From the IMG/VR virus record IMGVR_UViG_3300020183_000246, positions 1 through 35,160 of that record: a DNA stretch of 35,160 nt. One strand, given 5' to 3'. The notes under the pieces are model-generated. The model was not told the DNA's origin. It was given only the letters and a program-made list of their open reading frames with translations, and did not search any database. Positions 27,905-35,160 of this stretch are shown piece by piece. The position numbers and the translations under genes are program-made. Origin of the DNA: a virus. The first letter of the stretch is position 1. Each line of letters begins with the position of its first letter.

Positions 27905-28759
27905 ATGTCAAAACTAAAAGTAGCGGAGTTATTTTACTCTATTCAAGGCGAAGGTCGCTATATGGGCGTGCCTTCTGTCTTCCTTCGAACCTTTGGATGT
28001 AACTTTAAATGTGCAGGGTTTGGTATGCCGAGAGGACAACTAAGCACCGAGGCAGAAGATATTGCCAAGCGTGCCGATACATTCAAATCATATAAGGATC
28101 TGCCTCTGGTATCTACTGGTTGCGATTCGTATGCTTCTTGGCACCCTTCGTTCAAGCATCTAAGTCCAATGCTAGAGTCTAATGCTATTGTAGAGGCTAT
28201 CATGGGCATGCTTCCTCACGGAAAGTGGGAAGAAGAACATTTGGTAATTACAGGGGGTGAACCTTTGTTAGGATGGCAACGCGCATATCCCGATCTTCTT
28301 AATCACCCTCTAATGAGCTCTCTCAAAGAGATTACGTTTGAGACCAATGGTACTCAGCCTCTTTCAAAAGAGTTTAGTGACTACCTTAATGAATGGACGT
28401 TTGAAAGGGCTATGGGATATGCTAATTTAACATTTTCTGTATCTCCTAAGCTTCCCGTTTCAGGAGAAGTGTGGGAAGAAGCTATCAAGCCAGAGATTGT
28501 TTATCAGTATGCAGCAATTGGTTATACCTACCTTAAGTTTGTTGTAGCTACAGAAGAGGACGTACAAGATGTAGAGCGTGCGGTGGAAGCCTATCGCGAT
28601 CACTTCTTTGATGGTCCTGTTTATCTAATGCCTGTTGGCGGTGTTGAATCTGTTTACTCTCTTAATAATAGACGAGTAGCTGAGCTTGCCATGAAGAAGG
28701 GTTGGCGTTATTCTGATCGCTTGCAGGTACCTTTGTTTAAGAATGAGTGGGGTACTTAA
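27905..28759 (+). CDS. queE: 7-carboxy-7-deazaguanine synthase, QueE-like radical SAM enzyme
   Basis: 284 aa. QueE converts 6-carboxy-tetrahydropterin (CPH4) to CDG, the base precursor of queuosine and of deazaguanine DNA modifications. The N-terminus has the QueE signature ELFYSIQGEGRYMGVPSVFL and RTFGCNFKC. The radical-SAM cysteines read Cys32-x3-Cys36, then a ~36-residue insertion, then Cys73 in TGCDSYASW, which resembles the WCDSxFTW part of bacterial QueE. A GGEPLL SAM-binding motif is near residues 117-122 and ETNGT follows. The cluster-binding motif is thus split, which is unusual. RBS AGGAG. Stop overlaps the next ATG (TAATG). Confidence 0.88.
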   Translation: MSKLKVAELFYSIQGEGRYMGVPSVFLRTFGCNFKCAGFGMPRGQLSTEAEDIAKRADTFKSYKDLPLVSTGCDSYASWHPSFKHLSPMLESNAIVEAIMGMLPHGKWEEEHLVITGGEPLLGWQRAYPDLLNHPLMSSLKEITFETNGTQPLSKEFSDYLNEWTFERAMGYANLTFSVSPKLPVSGEVWEEAIKPEIVYQYAAIGYTYLKFVVATEEDVQDVERAVEAYRDHFFDGPVYLMPVGGVESVYSLNNRRVAELAMKKGWRYSDRLQVPLFKNEWGT

Positions 28760-29193
28760 TGGATTATACTTTTGATGACATGCTTGAAGGTGTAAAGCAT
28801 ATTAGAGAAACCTTTGAGGATGTCAAGTTTGATTATGTAGTAGGTATTGCGCGTGGAGGTGTTATTCCTGGAGTAATACTTTCACATCAACTTAAAGTAC
28901 CTTTCGTTGCACTGCATTGGCAAACGCGTGATGTAGAGAATCAAGAACATAATGCATGGATGTGCGATTATGCACACGAAGGCAAACAGATTCTACTAGT
29001 AGATGATATCTGCGACTCAGGAAAAACCTTTAGAGGTATCTTACGAGATTGGGATGCACATGAGCTAGCAAACGTCAAGTTGTCGTGTCTTATATTCAAT
29101 AAGGGTGTAGATTTAATTCATCCAGTCATCTATCATAAGACGATTGATAGAAATACTAATGTAGACTGGGTTAACTTTTGGTGGGAGAAGTAA
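28759..29193 (+). CDS. Type I phosphoribosyltransferase (purine-like)
   Basis: 144 aa. The PRPP-binding loop ILLVDDICDSGKT is at residues 78-90, the pyrophosphate loop ARGGVIPG at 31-38, and a C-terminal VDWVNFWWEK resembles the hood of xanthine/guanine phosphoribosyltransferases (WxxFPWE). It would join a purine-like base to PRPP. Start ATG 28759 is coupled to the queE stop; an in-frame GTG at 28747 lies inside queE and adds no conserved residues. Being between queE and queD, the base it handles may be guanine/xanthine (feeding GTP to FolE) or a 7-deazaguanine; neither can be proven here. Confidence 0.88.
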   Translation: MDYTFDDMLEGVKHIRETFEDVKFDYVVGIARGGVIPGVILSHQLKVPFVALHWQTRDVENQEHNAWMCDYAHEGKQILLVDDICDSGKTFRGILRDWDAHELANVKLSCLIFNKGVDLIHPVIYHKTIDRNTNVDWVNFWWEK

Positions 29194-29194
29194 A

Positions 29195-29764
29195 ATGTCA
29201 AAATATTATTCAACAAAGACTTATGGTAATGATCGCGGACTATCGTGTACTTTTAGGCAATGGCGTTCAACACACTCACATTGTTCGCTTCTTCACGGGT
29301 ACTCTATCGGCATCAAGTTGATCTTCGAATCAGAGACTCTTGATGATCGTAACTGGGTCATGGACTTTGGTGGTTTAAAAGCTTTCAAGGAGTGGTCCGA
29401 GTATATGTTCGATCATACTCTTATTATTGCAGAGGATGATCCTTTCCTGAGCAAGTTTAAGGAACTAAACGCAATAGTTCGCACAGACTCAGAAGACCCT
29501 AACAGCGAGGTACCACAAAAGCGTGGCGCTGTATGTGATATTCGAATTGTTGAAGGTGTTGGTTGCGAAAAGTTTGCCGAGCTTGTATATAAGAAGATGG
29601 ACAGCATTCTTAAGTCATTTCAGAAGCACGGACACTGGGAGTATGTTGACAACAACCAACACGTGCATAGGTATGAATGCCGCTATCCAGTAGGGGTGGG
29701 TGTACGTTTGAAGTCAGCAGAAGTTTTTGAGCATGCGGGTAATTCTGCAGTGTATGAGGGTTAA
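29195..29764 (+). CDS. queD: 6-carboxy-tetrahydropterin synthase-like protein (QueD family)
   Basis: 189 aa, longer than E. coli QueD (121). QueD converts dihydroneopterin triphosphate to CPH4. Visible family core: STHSHCSLLHGYSIGIKLIF with the likely catalytic Cys and zinc His, then NWVMDFGGLKAFKEW and FDHTLIIAEDDPF. The usual HGH zinc pair is HGY here, while extra His precede the Cys (THSHC), so the metal site may be rearranged. I recall similar versions in alphaproteobacterial 6-pyruvoyl-tetrahydropterin synthase homologues. C-terminal VGVGVRLKSAEVFEHAGN. Directly precedes folE. Confidence 0.82.
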   Translation: MSKYYSTKTYGNDRGLSCTFRQWRSTHSHCSLLHGYSIGIKLIFESETLDDRNWVMDFGGLKAFKEWSEYMFDHTLIIAEDDPFLSKFKELNAIVRTDSEDPNSEVPQKRGAVCDIRIVEGVGCEKFAELVYKKMDSILKSFQKHGHWEYVDNNQHVHRYECRYPVGVGVRLKSAEVFEHAGNSAVYEG

Positions 29765-29766
29765 TT

Positions 29767-30456
29767 ATGAAAAATAATCTAAGTGATATTATTAGAGATC
29801 AGATGCGTAAGGATGGAAAGCGCTTCCATGCTTGTGATAACGTATCTGAATATCTTGATGATGAGAAGCGTAGTTTGTTGGTAGATGAGCTGTCGATTAA
29901 GTTTAGAGCCGTTCTTAATTCTCTTCTTATCGATGTAGAAACTGACCCTAACTCGATGGATACAGCCAAGCGATTGGCTAAGATGTATGTTTATGAGATT
30001 ATGGAAGGACGATACTTTAGTCAACCTGATGTGACAGCATTCCCTAACGATGATGGAGATGCATATAAAGGTATGCTAGTCATTCGCGCAGAGATTCGTT
30101 CTATGTGTTCTCATCACCATCAACCAGTTAACGGTACCGTCTATATCGGTATCATTCCTAATGAAAAGGTAATTGGACTATCCAAGTATATTCGATTAGC
30201 TCAATGGCATGCACGTCGCGGTACTCTTCAAGAAGAACTATGCAATCGTATTGCTAAAGCAATCTCTGAAGCAACCGGCTCTCCTGATGTAGCTGTGTAT
30301 ATTCAAGCAACTCATGGCTGCTGTGAAAATAGAGGTGTGATGGCTCATTCATCTCTTACACAGACTACTGTTCTAAGAGGTGAATTCGATAGCGCTGATG
30401 TGAAGAAGGAGTTTTTCGATAACATCCAGCTACAGCAGACCTATAGAAAAGACTAA
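29767..30456 (+). CDS. folE: GTP cyclohydrolase I
   Basis: 229 aa. Converts GTP to dihydroneopterin triphosphate, the first step toward CPH4, CDG and (in hosts) folate. Core elements: SMDTAKRLAKMYVYEIMEGR, zinc-binding SMCSHHHQPVNGTVYIGIIP with Cys and His as in the CEHH motif, KVIGLSKYIRL, and the second zinc Cys in ATHGCCENRGVMA (usual EHxCMxxRG). All catalytic positions look intact. It is the last gene of the operon queE-PRT-queD-folE; a 181-base structured gap follows. Confidence 0.94.
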   Translation: MKNNLSDIIRDQMRKDGKRFHACDNVSEYLDDEKRSLLVDELSIKFRAVLNSLLIDVETDPNSMDTAKRLAKMYVYEIMEGRYFSQPDVTAFPNDDGDAYKGMLVIRAEIRSMCSHHHQPVNGTVYIGIIPNEKVIGLSKYIRLAQWHARRGTLQEELCNRIAKAISEATGSPDVAVYIQATHGCCENRGVMAHSSLTQTTVLRGEFDSADVKKEFFDNIQLQQTYRKD

Positions 30457-33566: not shown

Positions 33567-33797
33567 ATGAAACTAAAACGTTTTACAAGACACGATTCAC
33601 CTCCGAAAGAGGTTCCGTTTGAGGTAATGCTTAGACGCTTTAAAAAGAAGACTGAACGAGCAGGCACTCTCAATGATCTAAGAGAGAAAGAGTTCTACGA
33701 AAAGCCATCTGCAAAAAGAAAGCGTCAAAAAGCAGCCGCAGTAAAACGTTGGCAAAAGCAACTTCGTATGTCAGAACTTCCAAAGAAGAACTACTAA
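33567..33797 (+). CDS. rpsU: Ribosomal protein bS21 homologue
   Basis: 76 aa, very basic. Residues 17-33 ([17 protein letters not shown]) and 43-61 ([19 protein letters not shown]) match the bacterial S21 family closely (E. coli PFDVALRRFKRSCEKAG and FYEKPTTERKRAKASAVKR). An N-terminal extension of ~12 residues ([14 protein letters not shown]) and a short C-terminal tail differ from E. coli. bS21 sits on the 30S platform near the 3' end of 16S rRNA and helps initiation. Viral bS21 genes are known, including in marine T4-like Pelagibacter phages. GGAG RBS. Placed after ligase, coupled by TAATG to the next small gene. Confidence 0.93.
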
Positions 33798-33927: not shown

Positions 33928-34446
33928 ATGACTCAAGTGATCAAGTCTCCTTATAATGATGATATAAGAAAGGCTGTGTGGTACTCATTCAAGAAATCGA
34001 ATGTAGACAAGCATGGCAATAGCGGAGCTATTGGTGAGCGAGGAGAGCAAAACGCTATTAAACTGCTCACTGAGATTATGTCGCCTAAAAGTATAGTCGA
34101 CCACTCAGAGGATGCTTTGATGCAGCTTCTGGGAGTCGACTTAACTGTAGTTGGCGATAAGATAAGAACTATAGATGTCAAGTCTGGTAAGACGGGCCTT
34201 TACTGGAATAGAGATCGTAGTTATTGGTATATTACTATTAAAGAAGAATTCTTTAAACCTGAAAAGGTTAATACTCACTTTATGCATCTAGGTCCTAAGG
34301 GTGATGTTTACGTTATGTATTCTAAAACTGACCTCATCAATTGGATGTCTAGCGACGAAAATAAAAAGAGATTGATTAAAGATGACTATGGGTATAGAAT
34401 TAGACGAGAAGACTGGCCAGATTTTATGCACACTAATATGAGGTAA
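33928..34446 (+). CDS. Putative PD-(D/E)XK nuclease-like protein
   Basis: 172 aa. Candidate active site: helix with GERGEQNAIKLL (Glu37/Glu40), then GVDLTVVGDKIRTIDVKSGK with Asp71 and Asp83-Val-Lys85, i.e. the E...D...(D/E)xK arrangement of the fold. The remaining sequence (YWYITIKEEFF, DVYVMYSKTDLINW) fits the alpha/beta core edges. I chose ATG 33928, preceded by AAAGGT at a nine-base spacing; in-frame ATGs at 33910 and 33919 are alternatives. It sits four bases before the dpdA-like gene. Function (host DNA degradation, exclusion or repair) is not known. Confidence 0.6.
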   Translation: MTQVIKSPYNDDIRKAVWYSFKKSNVDKHGNSGAIGERGEQNAIKLLTEIMSPKSIVDHSEDALMQLLGVDLTVVGDKIRTIDVKSGKTGLYWNRDRSYWYITIKEEFFKPEKVNTHFMHLGPKGDVYVMYSKTDLINWMSSDENKKRLIKDDYGYRIRREDWPDFMHTNMR

Positions 34447-34449
34447 CAA

Positions 34450-35160
34450 ATGATTAAAATAGCACACGAAGCTCCTATTGCACTATTTGATGAAGTGCAA
34501 ATGATGACTGACTATGACTATGCTTTGGTTCATCTTCTTGATGAGAATACAAGCTATCGAAATAAATTTAAAAAAGCTAAGAAGCAGGGGCGCGAGGTAC
34601 TTCTCGATAACTCTATCTTTGAACTAGGCACCTCTTTTGATCCAGACAAGTATAAAGAGTGGATTGTTGATCTTAACCCGGACTGGTATATTATTCCCGA
34701 CGTACTTGAAGATGCAGAGGCTACCGTTAAGTATGTTAAGGATTGGGACTTTGATCACCCAGCTAAGACTATTGGTGTAGTGCAAGGCAAGTCTATTGAA
34801 GAGATTGCGCAATGCTATCTTGAGGTGGAACCTTTAGTTGATAAGGTTGCCATCTCGTTTGATTATTCATTCTTTATATCAGAGAGTATGTTTGGTAAGA
34901 TGCCTACTCAATACCATTACTATATGCTGGGTCGTCGTAAGATGATTGAGATGCTTCTTGAGAATAATATCATCAATCAAGATAAACCTCATCACCTATT
35001 AGGTTGCGGCCTACCTCAAGAGTTTGCCGTATATAAAGACTATAAGTGGGTTGACTCCCTTGATACATCTAATCCGGTTGTAGCAGGTATCAAGGGTATG
35101 CGATATGATGGGCTAAATGGACTACAAGACAAGCCATCTCAAAAGCTGTTTACTCTTATT
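34450..35160 (+). CDS. dpdA: DpdA-like DNA guanine transglycosylase, 5' part (cut by window edge)
   Basis: First 237 residues, open at the right edge. The sequence follows the TIM-barrel order of tRNA-guanine transglycosylases: LLDNSIFE (Asp53, where TGT has DSGGF), WYIIPDV (Asp84), IGVVQGKS (109-115; TGT GIVQGG), LLGCGLPQ (183-190; TGT LMGVGxP), and WVDSLDTSNPV (Asp202 as likely nucleophile; TGT has D at this place before P-T-R). DpdA enzymes exchange guanine in DNA for a 7-deazaguanine. The queE/queD/folE operon in the same window makes DNA rather than tRNA the likely substrate. Compact size suggests a DpdA2-like type, which I cannot confirm. Confidence 0.8.
   Translation, partial: MIKIAHEAPIALFDEVQMMTDYDYALVHLLDENTSYRNKFKKAKKQGREVLLDNSIFELGTSFDPDKYKEWIVDLNPDWYIIPDVLEDAEATVKYVKDWDFDHPAKTIGVVQGKSIEEIAQCYLEVEPLVDKVAISFDYSFFISESMFGKMPTQYHYYMLGRRKMIEMLLENNIINQDKPHHLLGCGLPQEFAVYKDYKWVDSLDTSNPVVAGIKGMRYDGLNGLQDKPSQKLFTLI

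Follow-up and report, generated by a model that had tools for sequence, protein, structure and literature searches.

In a stretch of viral DNA of 35,160 nucleotides (the window; positions 1 to 35,160 of IMG/VR record IMGVR_UViG_3300020183_000246, from an uncultured virus of bacteria), a gene for a PD-(D/E)XK nuclease-like protein, here assigned to family N1, lies directly before a dpdA-like gene. Its product is, with moderate confidence, taken to be a small PD-(D/E)XK DNase acting in concert with the phage 7-deazaguanine modification and cutting unmodified DNA, chiefly that of the host. The evidence comes from the conservation and predicted fold of the protein, from its linkage to dpdA in related phages and from the replacement of its gene by other nuclease genes.

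By its gene content the window belongs to a 7-deazaguanine phage; this is drawn from the QueE, phosphoribosyltransferase, QueD and FolE genes found in it (Table 1), together with the continuation of the cluster in IMG/VR contig IMGVR_UViG_3300021093_002354 (L001), which encodes identical nuclease and DpdA proteins and extends past the window edge. In L001 the nuclease gene is followed by dpdA (262 aa) and by genes for a formyltransferase-like protein, a P-loop kinase-like protein, a two-domain QueF and QueC, with Pfam matches to formyltransferase, QueF, QueC and AAA_28; reading of the sequence adds a putative class II amidotransferase-like N-terminus, which has no Pfam match, and a putative dCTP-deaminase-like protein. 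The phosphoribosyltransferase of the window and the formyltransferase-like and P-loop kinase-like proteins (L001:7304-8397) belong to the 7-deazaguanine cluster, and these three proteins could indicate a formylated preQ1-type base or a nucleotide-level route, beyond base exchange in DNA alone. A DNA ligase gene is present upstream of the nuclease gene within the window, and a homologue of ribosomal protein S21 (PF01165, 2.1e-16) is encoded between the two, at 33567-33797.

The putative DpdA of the window is assigned by homology to annotated phage genes: it shares 54% identity with the annotated DpdA of Flavobacterium phage immuto and about 40% with homologues in Campylobacter phages CP220/CPt10, gives a weak local match to CAjan DpdA (E 0.011) and has no match to TGT (PF01702). 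In CP220, CPt10 and CP20 (L005:5995-6771) this homologue, about 40% identical, is an unannotated 'hypothetical protein'; a 2019 paper listed Campylobacter phages as being without DpdA, though their dG is reported as fully replaced.

Table 1. Features of the window and related genes in other contigs (positions without a locus prefix refer to the window)
Feature	Position	Strand	Evidence
QueE-like radical SAM protein, 7-deazaguanine pathway	27905..28759	+	phrog_2076 4.9e-53
Phosphoribosyltransferase	28747..29193	+	PF00156 1.2e-14
QueD-like protein	29195..29764	+	phrog_2389 8.4e-33
FolE, GTP cyclohydrolase I	29767..30456	+	PF01227 6.2e-38
PD-(D/E)XK nuclease-like protein, family N1, 172 aa	33928..34446	+	ORF with ATG; 48-row alignment; AF2 model; fold matches
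Glu40 codon, helix A acidic residue of the PD-(D/E)XK core	34045..34047	+	invariant in 48 sequences
Asp71 codon, 'PD' aspartate	34138..34140	+	invariant in 48 sequences; precedes strand 72-75
Asp83-Val84-Lys85 codons, (D/E)XK motif	34174..34182	+	K85 invariant, D83 at least 90%; on strand 79-85
dpdA-like gene, truncated at the window edge; complete (262 aa) at L001:6523-7311	34450..35160	+	phrog_19058 1.9e-45
Related PD-(D/E)XK genes in immuto relatives	L033:11252-11725, L075:9122-9607, L077:11575-12069		

A sequence-only reading of the window had described a PD-(D/E)XK-like gene with Asp71 and Asp83-x-Lys85, ending four bases before dpdA. The residues are as described, and Glu40 completes the motif; the adjacency also stands, with 3 bases between the two genes (the stop codon ends at 34446 and the ATG is at 34450). 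Used as a single query, the N1 protein of the window has no match above threshold in Pfam or PHROG and none among PDB sequences; thus, the motif could be tested only with relatives. Homologues with 30-57% identity occupy the same place at several loci of a DpdA scan, and the motif is also present in a second, shorter PD-(D/E)XK family, N2 (about 145 aa), which can be aligned with N1. In the resulting alignment of 48 sequences, G36, E40, Q66, D71 and K85 do not vary, and D83 is conserved in at least 90% (L022 has Gln at this position, L033 Glu); given this conservation, the motif residues of N1 are no chance letters. The nuclease gene shows dN/dS values of 0.02-0.17 in relatives, indicating strong purifying selection.

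A structure model from the single N1 sequence was poor (pLDDT 43), but neither this value nor the lack of matches in lone-sequence searches was read as a missing fold, and an alignment of the window protein with 47 relatives gave a confident AlphaFold2 model (pLDDT 92.4, pTM 0.87). This model has the PD-(D/E)XK fold that had been suspected from the motif, with an alpha-beta core, a helix at residues 31-51 and strands at 72-75 and 79-85. The best solved fold is I-Ssp6803I (2ost_A; Z 9.0, 3.2 A over 115 residues), followed by an NhoI/Eco15I domain (Z 8.0), Hjc (7.7) and the SPARDA nuclease (7.5); RecU is also among the neighbours, and DpnI and PvuII rank lower. Foldseek E-values are modest (1.1e-3) and a Z below 8 is weak by itself, so the assignment leans on top rows that come nearly all from one nuclease superfamily and on the agreement of the catalytic residues. 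By modelled fold and catalytic residues the N1 protein is thus a member of the PD-(D/E)XK superfamily, with DNA cleavage as its predicted activity. One relative, L072, 56-57% identical to N1, scores above the cut-off of the Pfam family NERD (PF08378; 25.4 vs 22.1 bits); the window protein has no match to NERD and the consensus stays under the cut-off.

The linkage of the nuclease gene to dpdA was followed in IMG/VR contigs, which are mostly fragments, and a scan with a DpdA alignment retrieved 80 related loci. When only the nuclease profiles were used, so that the scan was blind to DpdA, dpdA was found directly downstream at 12 of the 13 N1 loci and at 43 of the 45 N2 loci with enough DNA; the conserved linkage on which the sequence-only reading depended is therefore borne out. 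In two of the three exceptions (L088 and L112) dpdA lies elsewhere in the same cluster, at a distance of about 2 kb, while the third (L122, N2) has neither dpdA nor folE on its 119 kb contig and is the one true exception. At this locus (L122:4441-6444) the N2 nuclease follows a PurT-like ATP-grasp gene and is possibly tied to another DNA modification. A 4-nt overlap with dpdA is present in 80 of 101 PD-(D/E)XK instances, a count in which some contigs appear repeatedly. The same nucleases are also found within que/dpd clusters of phages whose DpdA is only 29-35% identical, not always adjacent to it; because they accompany such divergent DpdAs, these genes are linked to the pathway and not to a particular site in the DNA. 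The position directly upstream of dpdA is called the slot here; in each of five contigs of about 160 kb whose slot holds a nuclease there is exactly one copy, of one type.

Searching from the opposite side, with DpdA only, a slot nuclease was found at 27 of 77 untruncated loci with a first query and at 43 of 77 loci with a second one; in one DpdA clade the slot is occupied by a nuclease at all 43 of 43 loci. The remaining loci are mostly in clades with an ORF of 60-80 aa, folE, queD or a family B DNA polymerase upstream, and two large DpdA clades, with the small ORF or the DNA polymerase upstream, have no such nuclease adjoining dpdA. Of the contigs with a nuclease-less slot that were searched whole by profile, most have neither the PD-(D/E)XK nor the GIY-YIG-like family described below; hence, the modification works without the nuclease. 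The nuclease-dpdA pair is clade-bound and not universal. In the immuto-like clade a conserved protein of 60-80 aa fills the slot (L004:7796-8008, about 25 loci), and in immuto-related phages, whose slot has no nuclease, a related PD-(D/E)XK gene follows dpdA at a distance of about 2-3 kb (Table 1). In the L222-L257 clade, without slot nuclease, dpdA comes right after a family B DNA polymerase gene and often overlaps it; this link between polymerase and dpdA may be functional in itself.

In many relatives the slot holds a different protein, of 118-133 aa, with a GIY-YIG-like pattern in which Y6, K22, G24, R34 and N74 are invariant (29 rows). The consensus of one branch reaches T5orf172 narrowly over the cut-off (20.6 vs 20 bits) and four members match the phrog_681 endonuclease; on these motifs and weak profile matches, the replacements are putatively assigned to the GIY-YIG class. 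A GIY-YIG-like branch distant from dpdA (L167-L175) has neither dpdA nor folE on its whole contigs, and is thus broader than the dpd phages.

The type of upstream gene changes at least 24 times on the DpdA tree, some of the types being non-nuclease. Exchanges are found between very close relatives: dpdA DNA is 96.7% identical between L018 (N2) and L022 (N1), 95.1% between L027 (GIY-YIG-like) and L092 (N1), and 95.1% between L105 (N2) and L178 (GIY-YIG-like). DNA identity of 92-95% breaks at the nuclease gene and returns at the ATG of dpdA, an exchange exactly at the gene borders. Pairs of loci were counted only among those fetched by the DpdA query, which removes the bias from nuclease-query loci. 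At dpdA identities of at least 85%, 30 of 130 nuclease/nuclease pairs are of different family (the pairs are non-independent and come from few clades), and among these DpdA-query loci there are 0 nuclease/empty-slot pairs; one nuclease/none pair was found at 80% dpdA identity. Since the gene is repeatedly replaced yet never lost among close relatives, its activity appears to be kept. PD-(D/E)XK and GIY-YIG proteins have nuclease activity in common and not fold; to judge from these exchanges of unrelated types in the slot, having a nuclease would matter more than which one.

The following course can be proposed. A 7-deazaguanine base would be made by FolE, QueD and QueE, encoded in the window, and by QueC, the two-domain QueF and the formyltransferase-like protein, encoded beyond it; the DpdA-like enzyme would then put this base into phage DNA instead of G. 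The nuclease is probably co-produced with DpdA, their genes overlapping by 4 bases in most relatives, and would cut DNA that still bears normal G, the modified phage genome being shielded. The nuclease would most likely act chiefly on the host chromosome, shutting down the host and supplying nucleotides; unmodified rival phages or plasmids may be attacked as well. In this scheme we infer that the protein is catalytic, that it depends on unmodified G, that the modification protects phage DNA and that the host is attacked. DNA with 7-deazaguanines is resistant to many restriction enzymes, and a dpdA mutant of CAjan loses this resistance (PMC6884629); in CP220 and CPt10, 100% of dG is reportedly replaced by dADG (PMC8306585), and by analogy with these phages full replacement may also occur in the phage of the window. 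A near-complete shield would explain how nucleases can be exchanged without matching specificity. A broader and more tentative idea, possible but not favoured by the odds, is that of an RM-like phage unit, in which a base-replacement shield in place of methylation is combined with interchangeable, unrelated nucleases, exchanged as exact cassettes in one fixed slot under pressure from conflict with hosts and rival phages; a shield over most or all guanines would let any G-dependent nuclease fit without matching specificity.

The main rival explanation regards the slot gene as a free-standing homing endonuclease, that is, a selfish gene that cuts related phages without it and copies itself into the slot, where different ones compete for the site. 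The best fold match of the N1 model would agree with it, I-Ssp6803I being a PD-(D/E)XK homing endonuclease (Z 9.0), as would the occurrence of homing endonucleases in both slot fold classes, the swapping of unrelated genes at one slot between near-identical phages and the presence of one GIY-YIG-like branch also in phages without dpdA. As a rule, however, homing endonucleases occur at several insertion sites and coexist with empty alleles. No empty allele accompanies the 130 nuclease/nuclease pairs at dpdA identity of at least 85%, occupancy reaches 43/43 in one clade, and the five large contigs have a single copy per genome and none at other sites; moreover, N1 and N2 are almost confined to dpd clusters, even where DpdA is 29-35% identical, which makes a common DNA target unlikely, and the gene is under strong purifying selection. 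Because of this swapping without loss, the linkage to the cluster, the single copy and the selection, a function coupled to the modification is preferred, and homing, downgraded for the missing empty alleles and extra copies, is considered unlikely.

Linkage to dpdA itself would also be expected of a DNA-processing partner of modification or replication, which nicks DNA for base exchange, resolves junctions in the manner of Hjc or trims replication products, with no role in self/non-self distinction; the fold matches include Hjc and RecU, and the window encodes a DNA ligase upstream of the nuclease. Nevertheless, a protein docking on DpdA or on a junction would not be expected to be swapped freely for an unrelated fold, and the gene is missing from many DpdA phages, so that such a role seems quite improbable. 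The rapid turnover of nuclease types beside a constant dpdA, on the other hand, resembles diversification under conflict, as in a phage arms race in which a modification-sensitive nuclease acts mainly on the DNA of rival phages or plasmids and not on the host chromosome. Close relatives with the same modification would be immune to it, though, and rival DNA as substrate is a proposal to which the present data lend no support; as the principal role it is therefore judged very doubtful. A nuclease coupled to the modification and directed chiefly against host DNA remains the preferred explanation.

The nuclease-dpdA pairing is not described in the open-licence literature searched, an earlier mention elsewhere being possible, and the words 'nuclease' and 'endonuclease' are absent from the main text of the main paper on phage 7-deazaguanines (PMC6884629). 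Among 84,980 cellular genomes scanned, none had a relative of the window family N1. The 7-deazaguanines of phage DNA are known to protect it passively from restriction by the host; with a nuclease linked to them and kept by selection, this protection would become half of an active weapon, similar to that of T4 but built on guanine. The swap of nucleases beside near-identical dpdA genes is a natural experiment, in which cutting would be kept and not a particular protein, and it predicts broad protection of guanines. The cassettes are small, about 120-175 aa, which makes the idea directly testable in the laboratory.

With respect to known systems, the phage 7-deazaguanine clusters (9g, CAjan and Rosebush; CP220/CPt10; immuto) likewise combine FolE/QueD/QueE/QueC with DpdA, but representatives of all the nuclease families had no tblastn match in 50,697 phage records, and the immuto and CP20 records hold no slot nucleases by profile. 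I-Ssp6803I is the closest solved fold (Z 9.0, 115 residues) and of similar size, whereas identity is only about 12% and the window nuclease is not intronic, is tied to dpd clusters and has no empty alleles in near relatives. Bacterial dpd islands, with which the sequence-only reading had drawn a parallel, also join 7-deazaguanine modification to DNA cleavage through DpdA and restriction genes, while here a single small nuclease is borne by a phage; the parallel finds no support in homology, since neither the slot nucleases nor the window DpdA match PADLOC defence models above noise.

The parallel with T4 drawn in the same reading holds as logic and fails as homology. In T4, two endonucleases specific for cytosine DNA start the breakdown of host DNA, leaving its own modified DNA intact (PMC6071114); endonuclease II (DenA) and hydroxymethylcytosine DNA are thus similar to the proposed system in coupling self-modification with endonucleases for unmodified host DNA, and the GIY-YIG-like slot genes of some relatives would be of the nuclease class of EndoII. 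The window protein is of the PD-(D/E)XK and not the GIY-YIG type, and homology of the GIY-YIG-like slot genes to DenA was looked for and none was detected. Conversely to T4, guanine and not cytosine is the base concerned, and the nuclease gene adjoins the modification gene. The logic is known from T4; novelty lies in the base concerned, in the nucleases and in the swappable cassette.
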